Shown: piece after piece, positions 26,525 to 35,402 of the stretch
Layout of the letters: each line of letters begins with the position of its first letter
Position numbering within the stretch: position 1 is the first letter of the stretch
From: Thermoplasmata archaeon
GTDB lineage: Archaea; Thermoplasmatota; Thermoplasmata; Thermoplasmatales; GCA-001856825
Reading direction: 5' to 3'
DNA: 64,000 nt
NCBI GenBank assembly: GCA_021817415.1
Contig: JAKAUZ010000003.1
Span: 62,001 to 126,000, forward strand
Made by a program: the position numbers and the translations under genes
The notes under the pieces: model-generated
Databases searched by the model: none
What the model was told of the DNA's origin: nothing
Seen by the model: the letters and a program-made list of their open reading frames with translations, nothing else

Positions 26525-27376
26525 GTGAGTGACCCTATCGTAGTTTACCTATTCATGTTGGTGGGGCTTTCTCTTTTAGCTGGAGTAATAGGGGCCCTGG
26601 GTGGACTTGGTGGTGGGGTCCTTATAGTTCCTTTTCTCACTCTTTTTATTGGAGTCCCGATTCCGTTGGCAATCGGCGCATCAATTGTTTCAGTAATTGC
26701 AACCTCAAGCGGCTCTGCGGCAGCCTATGTCAGGGATCGCATTTCCAATATTAGAATTGGGACATTTCTGGTTCTTTTCACAACCTCTGGGGCAATTTTT
26801 GGAGCTTTTCTTGAGCATATTGTCCCTACAGCATTTCTCTTCTTGACTTTTGGAATTGTGCTTCTGATATCTATTGTTCCCATGGTAAGGAAACTGGGAG
26901 AAGAGACACCTGCAGAATTCAAGAATGATTCTATTGCCGAGAAGCTTTCGCTCAACTCAGAGTACCACGATGCAAAACAAGGCAAGAACATAAAATACAA
27001 TGTTACTGGGACCAGATCCGGTTCAGCAATGATGTTTGTTGCAGGAGTTCTGTCTGGTCTTCTTGGAATCGGCTCAGGTGCATTCAAAGTTATAGCGATG
27101 GATCTTGCCATGAAACTTCCAATTAAAGTTTCAACAACGACTTCAAATTTTATGATAGGAGTTACTGCAGCAGCAAGCGCAGGCATCTATTTCCTCACCG
27201 GAGATGTGAACCCATTCATTGCAGCCCCCGTAGCAGTTGGTGTACTTATTGGTGCAGTCGCGGGAACCAAGATACTTGTAAGAATAAGGAGTTCCACCGT
27301 ACGGAAAATATTTGCAGTCATAATTCTGGCAGTTGCCATTGAAATGCTCCTCAGAGGCATGGGGGTGCACACATGA
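26525..27376 (+). CDS. sulfite exporter TauE/SafE family membrane protein
   Basis: A 283-residue integral membrane protein starting with GTG at 26525. The family half-repeat is visible twice: GALGGLGGGVLIVPFL near residue 22 and SGLLGIGSGAFKV near 180, each with flanking membrane helices. Members move sulfite, sulfoacetate or other organosulfur anions; the substrate is not determinable. It overlaps the next gene by four bases (ATGA), and the pair TauE-DUF1634 recurs in archaea and bacteria. Confidence 0.88.
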   Translation: MSDPIVVYLFMLVGLSLLAGVIGALGGLGGGVLIVPFLTLFIGVPIPLAIGASIVSVIATSSGSAAAYVRDRISNIRIGTFLVLFTTSGAIFGAFLEHIVPTAFLFLTFGIVLLISIVPMVRKLGEETPAEFKNDSIAEKLSLNSEYHDAKQGKNIKYNVTGTRSGSAMMFVAGVLSGLLGIGSGAFKVIAMDLAMKLPIKVSTTTSNFMIGVTAAASAGIYFLTGDVNPFIAAPVAVGVLIGAVAGTKILVRIRSSTVRKIFAVIILAVAIEMLLRGMGVHT

Positions 27377-27795
27377 CCGGGACCTTGGAAGAAATGAAAG
27401 GGGAGGAACTTGAAATTGAATCCAGGATACTGGTCTTTTACCTCATATGGAGCGCATTGATTGCAGTAGTGATTATTGTGGCAGGGGTATTAGAATTCCT
27501 TATCACTGGAAATAGTGGTTATAAGAATATTTCTTTGCCTCAATTACTGACAGCACGTGGGAATTCTCTCATATTTCCATTCAATCCTATCCAAATTATC
27601 CGGGGGGTAATTGAGCTTAAATCGTTTGCAATCATACAGCTAGGAGTCATTCTCTTGCTGTTTACTCCATTTGGAAGGATTTTCTTGCAAATTCTGATTT
27701 TCGCGAGAGAGAAAGACAGAGCATTTACGGTGATAGCAGCTACAGTATTCGTAATACTGCTGATTTCACTTTACACTGTGAGATTTCTTTCATGA
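27373..27795 (+). CDS. DUF1634 membrane protein, partner of the TauE-family gene
   Basis: A 140-residue protein with three predicted membrane helices (ILVFYLIWSALIAVVIIVAG, AIIQLGVILLLFTPFGRIF, AFTVIAATVFVILLISLY). The size and helix pattern match DUF1634, commonly encoded next to TauE/SafE exporters. It may be a subunit or accessory of the transporter. Its start overlaps the TauE stop by four bases, indicating coupled translation. The stop overlaps the convergent dehydrogenase by six bases. Confidence 0.78.
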   Translation: MTGTLEEMKGEELEIESRILVFYLIWSALIAVVIIVAGVLEFLITGNSGYKNISLPQLLTARGNSLIFPFNPIQIIRGVIELKSFAIIQLGVILLLFTPFGRIFLQILIFAREKDRAFTVIAATVFVILLISLYTVRFLS

Positions 27796-30565: not shown

Positions 30566-30971
30566 TGATAGAATGGGAATTAAACATTGCCTAAGTAGTC
30601 AGAGTAAGGTCAGTGTTCTAGACAGTTCTTACCTTATGACAACTAACGTCCAGTACCATGGTTTCGAGATTTAATAGACCTTGGATTGTACGATAAATTC
30701 GAATATGGTCCTCTCTGCCTTCTAGAAGGTTCAAGCAACACGATGTTGCAGAGGAGAAAATGTATCAGTGGGATCCATCCATCTCTCTATTTGGCGACAT
30801 TGGGCAGTGAACTGTGCTTCCATTGAAGATAAATAACCCGGACTCTAATTATAATTAATGCCAGACCACTCATCTTTTTGCTCTATTCATATATTTGAAC
30901 ATGCCCAATCTGAATCTCTCTTCCCTTTTTCTTTAGATAAAATTAATAAATAAGCTCTATTTACTAAAACA
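30566..30971. other. 406-bp gap with no supported gene
   Basis: The stretch between malic enzyme and the SPFH module has no start with a plausible ribosome-binding site and no RNA-gene motif. A stop-free plus-strand stretch of about 60 codons (from 30649, including PWFRDLIDLGLYD) lacks a start codon and resembles nothing I can name; it could be a decayed mobile-element fragment. An AT-rich promoter for the next gene sits around 30937-30960. Confidence 0.5.
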
Positions 30972-31493
30972 ATGTCCGATATTCGAGACCAGGTGGTTGA
31001 TGATAGAGGAGTAATCAAGAAATTGCAACTTATGTTTCCAGGGTACCACGGATACAGGGTCAGTGAGGATCTGAGGGATGCTGATATTTATCTGAAAGAT
31101 GAATTATATAAGAAGATGCTTGACATTATAAATGACCTGAAGGCCGCCGAGTCTTCCCTGGTAAGCAACGGAATTTTCACAAATCTTGACAAAATCGGTC
31201 AAACAAGGTCAAAAATACAGACAGCTGCGGCAGACCTCAAACATCATCAGGCAGGATATTCAGGAATTTCGGCAGGGATTAAAGTAACTCCAGCTAAGAT
31301 TTCATCACTTTACGATCTGGATATGAAAATCTACGAGCAGATCCAGACGCTTAGTACTGTTATTCAGGGTTTCAAACAAGAATGTGCACAGGGAAATTTC
31401 AATCAAGCGAGACTTCAGGATGTTAACTCTGCGGTTGGATCAATATCCCAACTCAACCAAAGCAGGGAAACTTTGTTGTACGGGGGCGTGTAA
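30972..31493 (+). CDS. all-helical protein with GYxGY motif, first gene of an SPFH module
   Basis: A 173-residue helical protein. Its N-terminus has PGYHGYRVSEDLRDADIYLKD, a GYxGY-x-E-x-R-x-x-D pattern I associate with small helical proteins encoded beside SPFH and zinc-ribbon genes. The remainder is amphipathic helix with many Gln and Ser. No catalytic residue is evident. The stop abuts the start of the SPFH gene, so the two are translated together. Function is unknown; partnership with the SPFH protein is inferred from order. Confidence 0.55.
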   Translation: MSDIRDQVVDDRGVIKKLQLMFPGYHGYRVSEDLRDADIYLKDELYKKMLDIINDLKAAESSLVSNGIFTNLDKIGQTRSKIQTAAADLKHHQAGYSGISAGIKVTPAKISSLYDLDMKIYEQIQTLSTVIQGFKQECAQGNFNQARLQDVNSAVGSISQLNQSRETLLYGGV

Positions 31494-32657
31494 ATGGTAT
31501 TCAGGAAGACTCCGCCTGGCGGGATACCTCCAAGTGGTGGTAGTGTCTTTGGTTCGACGACAATGGAATGGGAAGATCAGTTCAAGCAGGGAAATATAAT
31601 GTGGAAAGTCCCCAGGCTCATAAGACTTAATGATAACATTGTTGTCAGGGAAGATGAAACAGCTGTTTTTTACAGAGACGGTAAAGCACTTACTTACATA
31701 GACAAACCTGGAAGATATGCACTAACAGACCTAAATGCGCCAATTGTCGGTAATCTAGTAAAGCTTCTGACTGGAATACAACAGCAGGCAGAAGTTTATT
31801 ACCTACAGAGAAGAATATTTGACGGGAAATTTGGATCAAAGGAACCTTATGCGTTCAGGGACAAGGATTTCGGTATAGTCATGCTGAGGCTGTTTGGTGA
31901 GCTGAGGTATCGTATCTCAGATCCTTCCATATTTATAAATCAGTTTGTAGGGACGTTCGCGATTGAAACAAGTGCGCAAGTCGATGACAGGATCAGGGAA
32001 CAGGTTGTTTTATTATTATACAATATCCTAGGGAAAATGAAGGATCAGGGCGTTTCTGTACTGGACCTGCCTTCAAATTTGATGAATATCGAAGAGGCAG
32101 TGATTGCAAATGCAAAAGGATCTTTTGATCAATATGGGATAGAGATCAATAAGATATCTGGGCTCAACATTTCTCTTCCAGATGCTGTACAGAAAGCAGT
32201 TGATGCAAGATCAAGCATGCAGGTACTGGGAGTCAATTATCTGCAGTTCCAGGCTGGTCAGGCAATGGTTGATGCCGCTAAAAACCCATCTGGAACGGCA
32301 GGCGCGGGCGTTGGTCTCGGAATGGGAATGGGAGCCGGGGCGGGGATGGCATATCCTATGGCTTCCAGTATATCGCAGGGTATTTCGCAACCAGCCCAGC
32401 CTTCGCAGCCACCTGGAAAGAAATGTCCTAAATGTGGAGCAACAGTAGACGAGCATGCAAAGTTCTGTCCGGATTGTGGTTATAATTTCCAGGAAGCTGA
32501 GACGATGAAATGTCCCGCTTGCGGTAAGGATATACCTAAGAATTCCAAATTCTGTCCAGAATGTGGGAAACCAATAGTCTCAAAGTGCCCAAAATGCGGT
32601 ACTGATCTGTCCCCAGGCGCAAAATTCTGTCCTAACTGTGGAGAGAAGGTGAACTGA
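31494..32657 (+). CDS. SPFH-domain protein with three C-terminal zinc ribbons (YdjI/virion-core-like)
   Basis: A 387-residue protein. About residues 25-260 form an SPFH-type domain of the COG4260 kind (IVVREDETAVFYRDGKAL, FGELRYRISDPSIFINQFVG, INKISGLNISLPDAVQKAVD). A Gly/Ala-rich linker (GVGLGMGMGAGAGMAYP) follows, then three CxxC-CxxC zinc ribbons at about 308-387 (CPKCG ... CPDCG; CPACG ... CPECG; CPKCG ... CPNCG). Proteins of this type assemble on membranes in bacterial envelope-stress systems such as Bacillus YdjI. It directly abuts both neighbours, with a GGTGA site for the next gene. Confidence 0.8.
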   Translation: MVFRKTPPGGIPPSGGSVFGSTTMEWEDQFKQGNIMWKVPRLIRLNDNIVVREDETAVFYRDGKALTYIDKPGRYALTDLNAPIVGNLVKLLTGIQQQAEVYYLQRRIFDGKFGSKEPYAFRDKDFGIVMLRLFGELRYRISDPSIFINQFVGTFAIETSAQVDDRIREQVVLLLYNILGKMKDQGVSVLDLPSNLMNIEEAVIANAKGSFDQYGIEINKISGLNISLPDAVQKAVDARSSMQVLGVNYLQFQAGQAMVDAAKNPSGTAGAGVGLGMGMGAGAGMAYPMASSISQGISQPAQPSQPPGKKCPKCGATVDEHAKFCPDCGYNFQEAETMKCPACGKDIPKNSKFCPECGKPIVSKCPKCGTDLSPGAKFCPNCGEKVN

Positions 32658-33584
32658 TTGTTCTGCAGGAAATGCGGTAGTCAAATCCCGGACGACTCGG
32701 TCTTCTGTCCCAAATGCGGTGCCCCACAGAATGGCGGGAGTCAAACTTCTTCCCAATCGCCAAAGCCGGCTTCCGATGAGAACGAGATCCTGAAGGAAAT
32801 GAAGTGCCCAAACTGCGGTGCTCCTCTCTCACCACAACCTGGGGAAGCCATGGTGGTCTGTCAATATTGCGGCACATCGGTTACACTGAGCACAGCAGGA
32901 TGGTCAAAAGTCGGGAAACACTTCATTCTAGACATAAAGATTGCAATGAAGGATAATGCACTTGCCATTGCACATCAGTTTCTTGACAGGAGTATACTTC
33001 ACAGACATCTTTTTGAAAAAAGCACAGTAAAGACAACTGAACTTCAATACGTGCCCTACTGGATACTTGATGCGGGGTTTGTTGCACAGTATAGGTACAA
33101 GAGGGAAGAAGCTAGCCCCGGGGGGTTTGTAGGAGTTCCGCTTGGAGGAAGAGGTGGGTTCGGGGGACCGACTGTTCAGTTCAACACAGTGGTAGAGTCG
33201 GGTACAGACACGAGCGAAGTGAGTTATCCTGTCGTGGCTGTTGATAACCTGAACAAATATCAACCTCCTGATTATATTTTTAACCTTACCAATAAGAGGG
33301 CACTTACCACAAGTGACACACAGGGACCGGTAAAACTCTTGAATGGCAGTGTGAGCGAGGAAAAGGGACGAATGGATGGGAAGATAAGGATCACTCAATG
33401 GGAGATAAGGAGACTCCAGAAGAGGGTTCATGGATTTTTATCCGCTGATGTAAATGTGGACATCGCTGACACCTATCTAGTTCATATTCCTATATGGAGC
33501 ATTCTCTTTGAGCACAAGGATAAAAGTCTATTCTTACTTGTAGATGCGCACAACGGTATGGTAATGGAAGAATTAAAAGAGTAG
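32658..33584 (+). CDS. zinc-ribbon protein with PYW motif, third gene of the SPFH module
   Basis: A 308-residue protein starting with TTG at 32658, with GGTGA (32648-32652) five bases upstream of it. It has two zinc ribbons, at the very N-terminus (CRKCGSQIPDDSVFCPKCG) and near residue 54 (CPNCGAPL ... CQYCGTSV), then a beta-rich domain with VPYWILDAGFVAQYRYK and a Gly-rich loop. The layout recalls YdjG-like proteins found beside YdjI in bacteria. Its role may be sensing or membrane-stress signalling. It is followed by 100 bases and a promoter for the M61 peptidase. Confidence 0.7.
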   Translation: MFCRKCGSQIPDDSVFCPKCGAPQNGGSQTSSQSPKPASDENEILKEMKCPNCGAPLSPQPGEAMVVCQYCGTSVTLSTAGWSKVGKHFILDIKIAMKDNALAIAHQFLDRSILHRHLFEKSTVKTTELQYVPYWILDAGFVAQYRYKREEASPGGFVGVPLGGRGGFGGPTVQFNTVVESGTDTSEVSYPVVAVDNLNKYQPPDYIFNLTNKRALTTSDTQGPVKLLNGSVSEEKGRMDGKIRITQWEIRRLQKRVHGFLSADVNVDIADTYLVHIPIWSILFEHKDKSLFLLVDAHNGMVMEELKE

Positions 33585-33670: not shown

Positions 33671-33692
33671 AACGAACAGTGAATTGACTTCC

Positions 33693-35402
33693 ATGGCAGT
33701 TAGGTTTGTCGTTGATCTTTCTGAGTCGTATAGGAAAATTCTGAAAGTGAAAATGTTCCTCAAAGGTTCAAATGAAGTAGTTTCAATGCCCGTCTGGGCC
33801 CCTGGCTCATATCTTGTGAGGGATTATTCCAGAAACATTTCGTCTATTTCAGTTGAGGATGGAACAATGGTTCAACTGGACAAAACTACCTGGTCTGTGA
33901 CGTCTAACACTGATGAGATAGCACTTAGTTATGAAATATATGCTGACGATCTGTCAGTGCAGGGGACTTATGCCGATGATTCTCTTGTACTTCTGAATGG
34001 CACCAGTATATTTCTCTATCCCAGAAACGCCGGCCAGGTAAGTTACGAAGTTGAACTACTAAACTATGGAGATAAGAATATTTCGACAGGTATGCGGAAA
34101 GAAGGTGAATTATATGAAGCTGAGAATTACGATCAACTAGTGGACTCACCAATACTGATATCAAGGCATTCAATAGAAAGGTTCGATGCACTCGGGAAGA
34201 AGCACACGGTCGCCATACACGGATTCCTTAATCATGACAAGACAAAATTTGTGGAAGATCTGAGAAAGATAGTAATCTCAGAAGGGGGCATTTTTGGCTC
34301 ATTACCTTATGAGAATTACACTTTCATTGTGGTGCTTTTGCCTGACGACATCTACGGAGGACTGGAGCACAAGAACTCTACGGTGATCTTCTCAAACCAA
34401 CAGAACATCGTCAAAGATTTTGACTATAAAAATTTCCTTTCGATATTTTCCCACGAATTCTTCCATACCTGGAATGTGAAGAGGATCAGGCCTAAGACAC
34501 TGGGCCCATTTGATTACAGCAAGGAAAATTATACCGATATGCTCTGGTTCAGTGAGGGATTCACATCATACTATGAATGGCTCACACTCTGGAGGGCAGG
34601 CATAGTCAATGAGAAAGAGTATTTTGAACATCTTGCAGAGATGATCAATTATTACAGATTTATTCCAGGCCACAATACTCCCGCCTCACTTTCTTCCTTC
34701 AATACATGGACGAAACTGTACAAACCAAATGGAGACATTATAAACAGCTACGTTTCCTACTACCTGAAAGGGGAGCTGATTGCCTTTGCACTGAACATAC
34801 ACATCCTTAGGGAATCTTCAGGCTCCATTTCACTGGATGATGTTTTCAGAGCGCTTTACGCCGACTACGTCAACAGGAACAGGGGAATAACATATAGGGA
34901 GCTGAAGGAATTCATCAACAAAACACTGAAGAAAAATATTGACAAATTTGTCGATGACCTTGTCACCAGTTCGAAGGAATTGGATTTCGAAAATTACCTG
35001 AAATCTCTGTCATATGGATTCAAGTATTCGTTCCACGATGGGAATAAGGACCCCTCTGCGACGACTGGGATTGTCATACAGAACAACAGCGGAAAGTACA
35101 CAGTCTCAGGTGTCATAAAGGGTTATCCAGCACATGATGCTGGAATAAATGCAGGAGATGAATTAGTATCTATCAACGGAACCAGGTTTTCAGACAATTA
35201 CACAAGGGAATTCTCGAAGGAAATGAAAAGGTTCAAAATTGATGATCTCAAAGAATCCAGACCAGGGGATGAAATAATTCTCCACATTTTCAGGAAGAAT
35301 GTTTTGAGAGAAATACACATGAATGCAGTTGAAGAACCGAAGTGGATGAATCTGGAGAAAGCGGGTGAAAATGCTCTAATCGATAAGATCCTGAGAGGAT
35401 GA
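33693..35402 (+). CDS. M61-family peptidase (glycyl aminopeptidase-like) with PDZ domain
   Basis: A 569-residue metallopeptidase. The zinc motif HEFFH, in FSHEFFHTWNVKRI (about residue 252), is followed by the third ligand region FSEGFTSYYEWL. The N-terminal domain (MPVWAPGSYLVRDYSRN) is characteristic of M61. The C-terminus is a PDZ domain (GYPAHDAGINAGDELVSING, about 480). No signal peptide is visible, so it acts in the cytoplasm, trimming peptides, which fits with the Dpp importer. The leaderless ATG at 33693 is chosen over a TTG at 33684. Confidence 0.9.
   Translation: MAVRFVVDLSESYRKILKVKMFLKGSNEVVSMPVWAPGSYLVRDYSRNISSISVEDGTMVQLDKTTWSVTSNTDEIALSYEIYADDLSVQGTYADDSLVLLNGTSIFLYPRNAGQVSYEVELLNYGDKNISTGMRKEGELYEAENYDQLVDSPILISRHSIERFDALGKKHTVAIHGFLNHDKTKFVEDLRKIVISEGGIFGSLPYENYTFIVVLLPDDIYGGLEHKNSTVIFSNQQNIVKDFDYKNFLSIFSHEFFHTWNVKRIRPKTLGPFDYSKENYTDMLWFSEGFTSYYEWLTLWRAGIVNEKEYFEHLAEMINYYRFIPGHNTPASLSSFNTWTKLYKPNGDIINSYVSYYLKGELIAFALNIHILRESSGSISLDDVFRALYADYVNRNRGITYRELKEFINKTLKKNIDKFVDDLVTSSKELDFENYLKSLSYGFKYSFHDGNKDPSATTGIVIQNNSGKYTVSGVIKGYPAHDAGINAGDELVSINGTRFSDNYTREFSKEMKRFKIDDLKESRPGDEIILHIFRKNVLREIHMNAVEEPKWMNLEKAGENALIDKILRG

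Follow-up and report, generated by a model that had tools for sequence, protein, structure and literature searches.

A conserved archaeal GY-SPFH gene pair with a zinc-ribbon companion: a candidate PspA-independent, membrane-associated SPFH complex

Introduction

All domains of life have SPFH proteins, whose role is still debated. In Bacillus the operon pspA-ydjGHI encodes PspA, YdjG, the TPM protein YdjH and the SPFH protein YdjI (PMC8581546, PMC11237479). YdjI, together with YdjG and YdjH, brings PspA to the membrane, and YdjI raises membrane fluidity (PMC8581546). YdjG has been described as carrying two zinc ribbons, an uncharacterised body and a transmembrane segment (PMC11237479). A stretch of 64,000 nucleotides from a Thermoplasmata archaeon (hereafter the window) harbours three tandem genes that were likened to YdjG-YdjI-type membrane-stress genes in a sequence-only reading, which suggested a membrane-associated sensing complex. 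This raises the question whether the three genes form a genuine functional unit, and what an SPFH protein of this type might do in an archaeon.

Organization of the locus

The three genes, P0001, P0002 and P0003, lie head to tail on the + strand at positions 30972-33584, with gaps of 0 and 0 nt. Their coordinates and strand, the PGYHGY motif, the three zinc ribbons of the second protein, the further zinc-ribbon set of the third and its PYW motif were all confirmed. The features are as follows.

30941..30953, + strand: A/T-rich TATA-like element, a probable promoter judged from sequence, about 25 nt 5' of the P0001 ATG
30972..31493, + strand: P0001, the 'GY' protein, 173 amino acids, helical
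31038..31058, + strand: PGYHGYR signature of P0001 (residues 23-29); P23, Y28 and R29 invariant in 70 homologs
31494..32657, + strand: P0002, SPFH/Band_7_1 protein with three C-terminal zinc ribbons, 387 amino acids
31620..32225, + strand: SPFH (Band_7_1) domain of P0002 (residues 43-244); PF13421, 124.9 bits, cut-off 24
32283..32393, + strand: Gly/Ala/Met-rich linker of P0002 (residues 264-300)
32424..32477, + strand: zinc ribbon 1 of P0002 (residues 311-328)
32511..32564, + strand: zinc ribbon 2 of P0002 (residues 340-357)
32586..32639, + strand: zinc ribbon 3 of P0002 (residues 365-382)
32658..33584, + strand: P0003, double zinc-ribbon protein with a PYW-containing mixed alpha/beta body, 308 amino acids, TTG start
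32664..32717, + strand: zinc ribbon 1 of P0003 (residues 3-20; Cys 3/6/17/20)
32805..32870, + strand: zinc ribbon 2 of P0003 (residues 50-71; Cys 50/53/68/71), present in bacterial relatives too
33054..33062, + strand: PYW motif (P0003 residues 133-135), within one of the long beta strands predicted

Inspection by eye of 14 related loci showed similar A/T-rich elements in most of them, about 25-30 nt before the GY start, and P0001 is probably the first gene of a leaderless transcript. The TTG of P0003 follows immediately on the TGA stop of P0002; this start is supported because homologs have an ATG start codon at the corresponding M(F/Y)C.KCG. A gene for an M61 peptidase follows P0003 and was considered as a fourth member, but this position is kept only in the window's own family.

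Linkage and distribution of the genes

Among 119 distinct archaeal loci (identical copies removed), 114 have an SPFH gene directly downstream of the GY gene on the same strand, with gaps mostly of -4 to +18 nt. With the GY cut-off relaxed, seven loci lacked a downstream SPFH gene. Two of these are contig ends (L126, L129), three are solitary GY paralogs within the window's own family (L034, L036, L186), and two are divergent (L189, L198), with a next gene in which the zinc ribbon alone is recognisable. A divergent SPFH protein beside GY in L189 was considered and rejected, the hhalign match being restricted to its zinc ribbon. The GY gene occurs in 59 of the 117 genomes of the window's order, and the SPFH profile detected the same 59 genomes, one fragment in one further genome and one zinc-ribbon-only match (Fisher p = 5e-33 over the 117 genomes, phylogeny ignored). 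Pairwise distances of GY and SPFH proteins are correlated (r = 0.67, 0/1000 permutations), a value that co-inheritance would raise too.

Among 84,980 species genomes scanned, 109 GY relatives were found, of which 80 were kept. All of these are archaeal, from Thermoplasmata, DHVE2, Methanomassiliicoccales, Methanocorpusculum, ANME-2, Methanoperedens and Nitrososphaerales/Thaumarchaeota, and tblastn against plasmids revealed no bacterial GY loci. Gene order is kept across many archaeal families with unrelated flanks, in support of the three-gene module proposed earlier; since the flanking genes differ between families, the GY-SPFH linkage is not passive synteny. GY and SPFH are the constant core of the module, while the P0003-like gene may lie after or before this pair, occur in two or three copies, or be absent. 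The trio is thus a real module, far beyond chance. No description of the gene set was found in the literature searched, with subscription papers mostly outside the search.

The term 'virion-core-like', applied earlier to P0002, proved to be a database nickname only: viral contigs yielded no relative of GY or SPFH, and a viral or virion link was rejected. A defence system was rejected as well, as PADLOC returned nothing for P0001 and P0002 and weak zinc-finger noise only for P0003. The distribution also speaks against the idea that the module is explained by the lack of a cell wall. Methanocorpusculum and Nitrososphaerales normally carry S-layers. The argument fails because such S-layered lineages carry the module and about half of the window's own order does not.

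The SPFH protein P0002

The assignment of P0002 to the SPFH proteins, made earlier from the sequence, held up: its Band_7_1 score is far above the cut-off and it also matches Pfam Band_7 (34.7 bits, cut-off 23.6). By sequence profiles P0002 is an SPFH protein. Band_7_1 also detects a B. subtilis protein, used as a control, and like B. subtilis YdjI, P0002 combines a Band_7_1 score above the cut-off with a C-terminal zinc ribbon and the lack of a transmembrane anchor, the features of YdjI-type SPFH proteins. Its hydropathy maximum stays below the transmembrane threshold. The three ribbons are of the CxxC...CxxC type, and the preceding linker is G-rich in all aligned relatives as well as in bacterial SPFH-ribbon proteins.

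P0002 shares the SPFH superfamily with flotillins, stomatins and HflK/C. SPFH families are known as regulators or cages of proteases (Hinderhofer 2009, PMC2636767), and the trio could accordingly be a quality-control scaffold, in which an SPFH ring surrounds membrane proteins or, in the manner of HflK/C and FtsH, a protease, while GY and the zinc-ribbon protein serve as substrate adaptors. Zinc ribbons often bind proteins, which would suit such a role. However, no protease is a recurrent neighbour, the M61 peptidase being confined to the window's own family, and P0002 lacks the N-terminal transmembrane anchor of stomatins and HflK/C. A quality-control scaffold is therefore considered unlikely. 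From flotillins, stomatins and HflK/C alike P0002 differs in having a zinc-ribbon tail and no N-terminal membrane anchor. No NfeD gene was recognised among the recurrent neighbours of the trio.

The GY protein P0001

P0001 matches no Pfam family. It does match NCBIfam NF047596 (LIMLP_15305) over its full length (residues 10-167, E = 8e-8), as do 70/70 archaeal GY proteins at E <= 0.01 (best 1.5e-17). NF047596 was named from Leptospira and has no known function. The score of P0001, 32.3 bits, is below the curated cut-off of 210, so P0001 does not belong to that equivalog; judged by these profile matches it is a remote relative with clear full-length homology.

An AlphaFold2 model based on 70 sequences (pLDDT 81, pTM 0.76) predicts an all-helical protein: an N-terminal helix, a poorly predicted loop carrying PGYxGYR, and finally four helices (34-65/72-91/107-139/145-170) packed as a bundle. 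The invariant residues number fourteen (K16, P23, Y28, R29, D33, R35, D38, L41, H91, Y96, G98, Y114, D117 and R165). In the model, all seven that fall inside bundle helices are placed in one half of the bundle, and the others lie in the N-terminal segment and in segment 92-106, both of which join the conserved bundle end, a placement that takes successive helices to pack antiparallel. The conserved half has the lower column entropy (1.98 vs 2.89 bits, p = 2e-7). The clustering of invariant residues at one pole therefore indicates a functional site or a docking surface. Foldseek with the model gave no significant PDB match, and a PDB profile search with GY returned only chance-type matches to helical bundles, the best being a designed protein. 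An amphipathic, membrane-binding N-terminal helix was considered and rejected, since its hydrophobic moment was not above that of shuffled sequences.

The conserved pole might be an active or ligand-binding site instead of a docking surface, with GY acting as an enzyme or ligand-binding sensor under control of the SPFH protein. Most of the invariant residues, clustered at this pole, are indeed polar or charged (K16, Y28, R29, D33, R35, D38, H91, Y96, Y114, D117, R165), and the solitary paralogs show that GY can exist without an SPFH gene. Against this, neither Pfam nor fold searches gave a significant match to an enzyme or ligand-binding family, PDB sequence searches gave none that convinced, and an interface likewise predicts the 1:1 linkage of GY and SPFH. 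An enzymatic or sensory role of GY is regarded as improbable.

Relation to PspA and ESCRT-III

A helical protein encoded before an SPFH protein recalls the position of PspA before ydjGHI, and links between SPFH proteins and ESCRT have been proposed in archaea (PMC10936438). The trio could thus belong to a true PSP/ESCRT-type system, either because the SPFH protein recruits PspA or ESCRT-III encoded elsewhere, or because GY itself is a diverged PspA/ESCRT-III-like protein. The survey of the order offered little room for the first possibility. PspA (PF04012) was found above the cut-off in 0/117 genomes, the window's included, while 9/14 controls were positive, and YdjH/TPM (PF04536) likewise in 0/117 (8/14 controls positive). 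ESCRT-III was detected in 4/59 GY genomes versus 17/58 others (p = 0.02 inside the largest family, without correction for phylogeny); it is thus absent from 55/59 GY genomes and was not detected in the window's genome, whose assembly is about 89% complete. These counts refer to recognisable homologs, and a very divergent ESCRT-III or PspA could escape detection. As to the second possibility, 0/70 GY proteins match PF04012 or PF03357 at E <= 0.01, no PspA or ESCRT-III structure is among the Foldseek top 50, and GY is predicted to be a compact bundle with one conserved pole. On the evidence of these models and profiles, GY is not PspA/ESCRT-like but forms a bundle of four helices whose invariant residues gather at one pole. 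A PSP/ESCRT-type system is very improbable and already largely refuted.

Archaeal Meth_adaptin ESCRT loci contain an SPFH/zinc-ribbon protein (PMC10936438) and resemble the trio in being multi-gene, membrane-linked loci with an archaeal SPFH protein and zinc ribbon. They differ in encoding Vps4, ESCRT-III and adaptin-like proteins, none of which was recognised among the recurrent neighbours of the trio.

The zinc-ribbon protein P0003

Within the P0003 family P133 of the PYW motif is invariant and Y134 and W135 are at least 90% conserved. The body of P0003 is covered by no Pfam model. Its AlphaFold model is of moderate quality (pLDDT 80, pTM 0.65), predicts very long strands within the body and gave no PDB fold match. 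An NTF2/YpeB-like fold has been proposed for YdjG (PMC11237479); for P0003, with a moderate model and no PDB match, this fold was neither confirmed nor excluded. P0003 is homologous to multi-copy archaeal versions and to proteins whose genes directly follow an SPFH gene on plasmids of Pseudorhodobacter and Vibrio, with which the P0003 family has VPYW/LPYW and LPIW motifs in common. These plasmid proteins have a C-terminal transmembrane segment, whereas hydropathy predicts none in P0003.

Possible association with the membrane

By hydropathy P0001 is likewise without a transmembrane segment, so that none of the three proteins has one. Together with the five zinc ribbons of P0002 and P0003, and the fusion of GY to a zinc ribbon in one clade, this would also fit a cytosolic zinc- or redox-dependent regulator, whose ribbons bind nucleic acid or partner proteins and whose membrane link is incidental. 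Such ribbons are, however, commonly adaptors that do not bind DNA, and the SPFH domain and a recurrent membrane-protein partner argue against a cytosolic regulator, which we consider the least probable explanation.

The recurrent partner is a small protein of about four transmembrane segments (4-TM). It is encoded directly upstream of GY in about 41/144 GY-bearing stretches and after SPFH in up to 11/144, counts in which duplicates remain and a small number of unrelated membrane ORFs are included. A profile of one 4-TM version matched 16 of the order's genomes strongly (E < 1e-8), 15 with GY and 1 other (p = 2e-4). The ortholog in the window's genome is unlinked (G000:C36:829-1212) and adjoins a helical zinc-ribbon ORF. 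The earlier suggestion of a membrane link thus gains support from related loci. For the window's own proteins membrane contact is supported indirectly, because they have no predicted transmembrane helix and P0001 shows no significant amphipathicity in its N-terminal helix.

Proposed function and comparison with bacterial systems

The resemblance to YdjG-YdjI noted earlier stands in part. P0002 is kin to the YdjI-type family, and P0003, kin to bacterial ribbon proteins encoded next to SPFH genes, is like YdjG as published in combining zinc ribbons with an uncharacterised body. Unlike YdjG, an integral membrane protein, P0003 has no transmembrane segment; GY has no counterpart in pspA-ydjGHI, and two of the four components of that operon, PspA and YdjH, are missing. 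As PspA and TPM are absent from the order, the trio is not a PSP system by membership. By analogy, it plausibly works like the SPFH half of such a system.

We favour, at a probability of about 50%, the reading that the trio encodes an SPFH complex that is associated with the membrane, has GY as dedicated partner and, while independent of PspA, works like the YdjI/YdjG half of the Bacillus operon. P0002 would oligomerise via its SPFH domain on the inner face of the membrane, as inferred from its family. P0001 would be an obligatory subunit or adaptor docking on this oligomer, probably by its invariant pole, and P0003 a zinc-ribbon accessory or adaptor protein that other lineages have in one to three copies or lack. 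The membrane anchor is probably the small 4-TM protein. The role of the complex, like that of YdjI in Bacillus, would be to scaffold or survey a membrane patch. No hand-over to a PspA or ESCRT-III effector is envisaged, because neither is detectable in this genome; the documented task of YdjI in Bacillus is PspA recruitment, which therefore cannot apply in this archaeon. A bolder version is offered tentatively and is itself doubtful: GY-SPFH might be a distinct archaea-wide membrane machine independent of PspA and ESCRT, in which GY, with its conserved polar site, is the universal SPFH partner, capping the ring or serving as client adaptor, and replaces the membrane-repair effector where PspA and ESCRT-III are missing.

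As GY is almost never found without its SPFH gene, it offers a concrete way to study a dedicated SPFH partner, and an archaeal version without PspA makes the intrinsic function of YdjI-type SPFH complexes testable in isolation. The archaeal version also shows the SPFH/zinc-ribbon unit linked to PSP to be modular. No GY gene was detected in the Pseudorhodobacter and Vibrio plasmid stretches, where, as in the trio, an SPFH gene is followed by a gene for a zinc-ribbon/PYW homolog of P0003.

Distribution and variant architectures

Across the order (117 genomes), the GY-SPFH module and ESCRT-III (Snf7) tend to be mutually exclusive, a tendency that is uncorrected for phylogeny. In one Thermoplasmata clade (stretches L101, L104, L105, L107, L110, L116 and L202) GY proteins have a zinc ribbon at their N-terminus together with a proline-rich linker. 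A large protein of about 1200-1500 amino acids, TPR-like in appearance, is encoded upstream in L107, L187, L188 and L202. Two stretches (L189:3446-4666 and L198:4899-6194) encode, after a divergent GY gene, a protein of 406-431 amino acids with a C-terminal zinc ribbon. An SPFH domain was not recognisable in these two proteins, which are possibly strongly diverged SPFH proteins. In the close relative G025, a frame break splits the SPFH gene ahead of the zinc ribbons (L033:5001-6165, minus strand), reflecting either a sequencing error or decay.

Further loci in the same genome

The genome that contains the window harbours two further loci:
L186:3740-4240 (G000:C7:3740-4240), minus strand: second GY-like gene, solitary, without an adjoining SPFH gene
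L213:246-1212 (G000:C36): gene for a helical protein of 171 amino acids with a C-terminal zinc ribbon, and immediately after it an ortholog of the 4-TM partner

The solitary GY-like gene lies between a gene resembling an alcohol dehydrogenase and one for a basic protein that resembles a ribosomal protein, and is syntenic with the solitary copies in L034 and L036. The L213 locus may be an additional, unlinked component of the GY-SPFH system.

Neighbouring genes in the window

33684-35402: M61 peptidase carrying a PDZ domain, immediately 3' of the module
26525-27795: TauE/SafE exporter gene, followed by an overlapping DUF1634 membrane protein gene

The position of the M61 peptidase after the module is conserved in the window's family only. 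The TauE/SafE-DUF1634 gene pair is conserved within this family.
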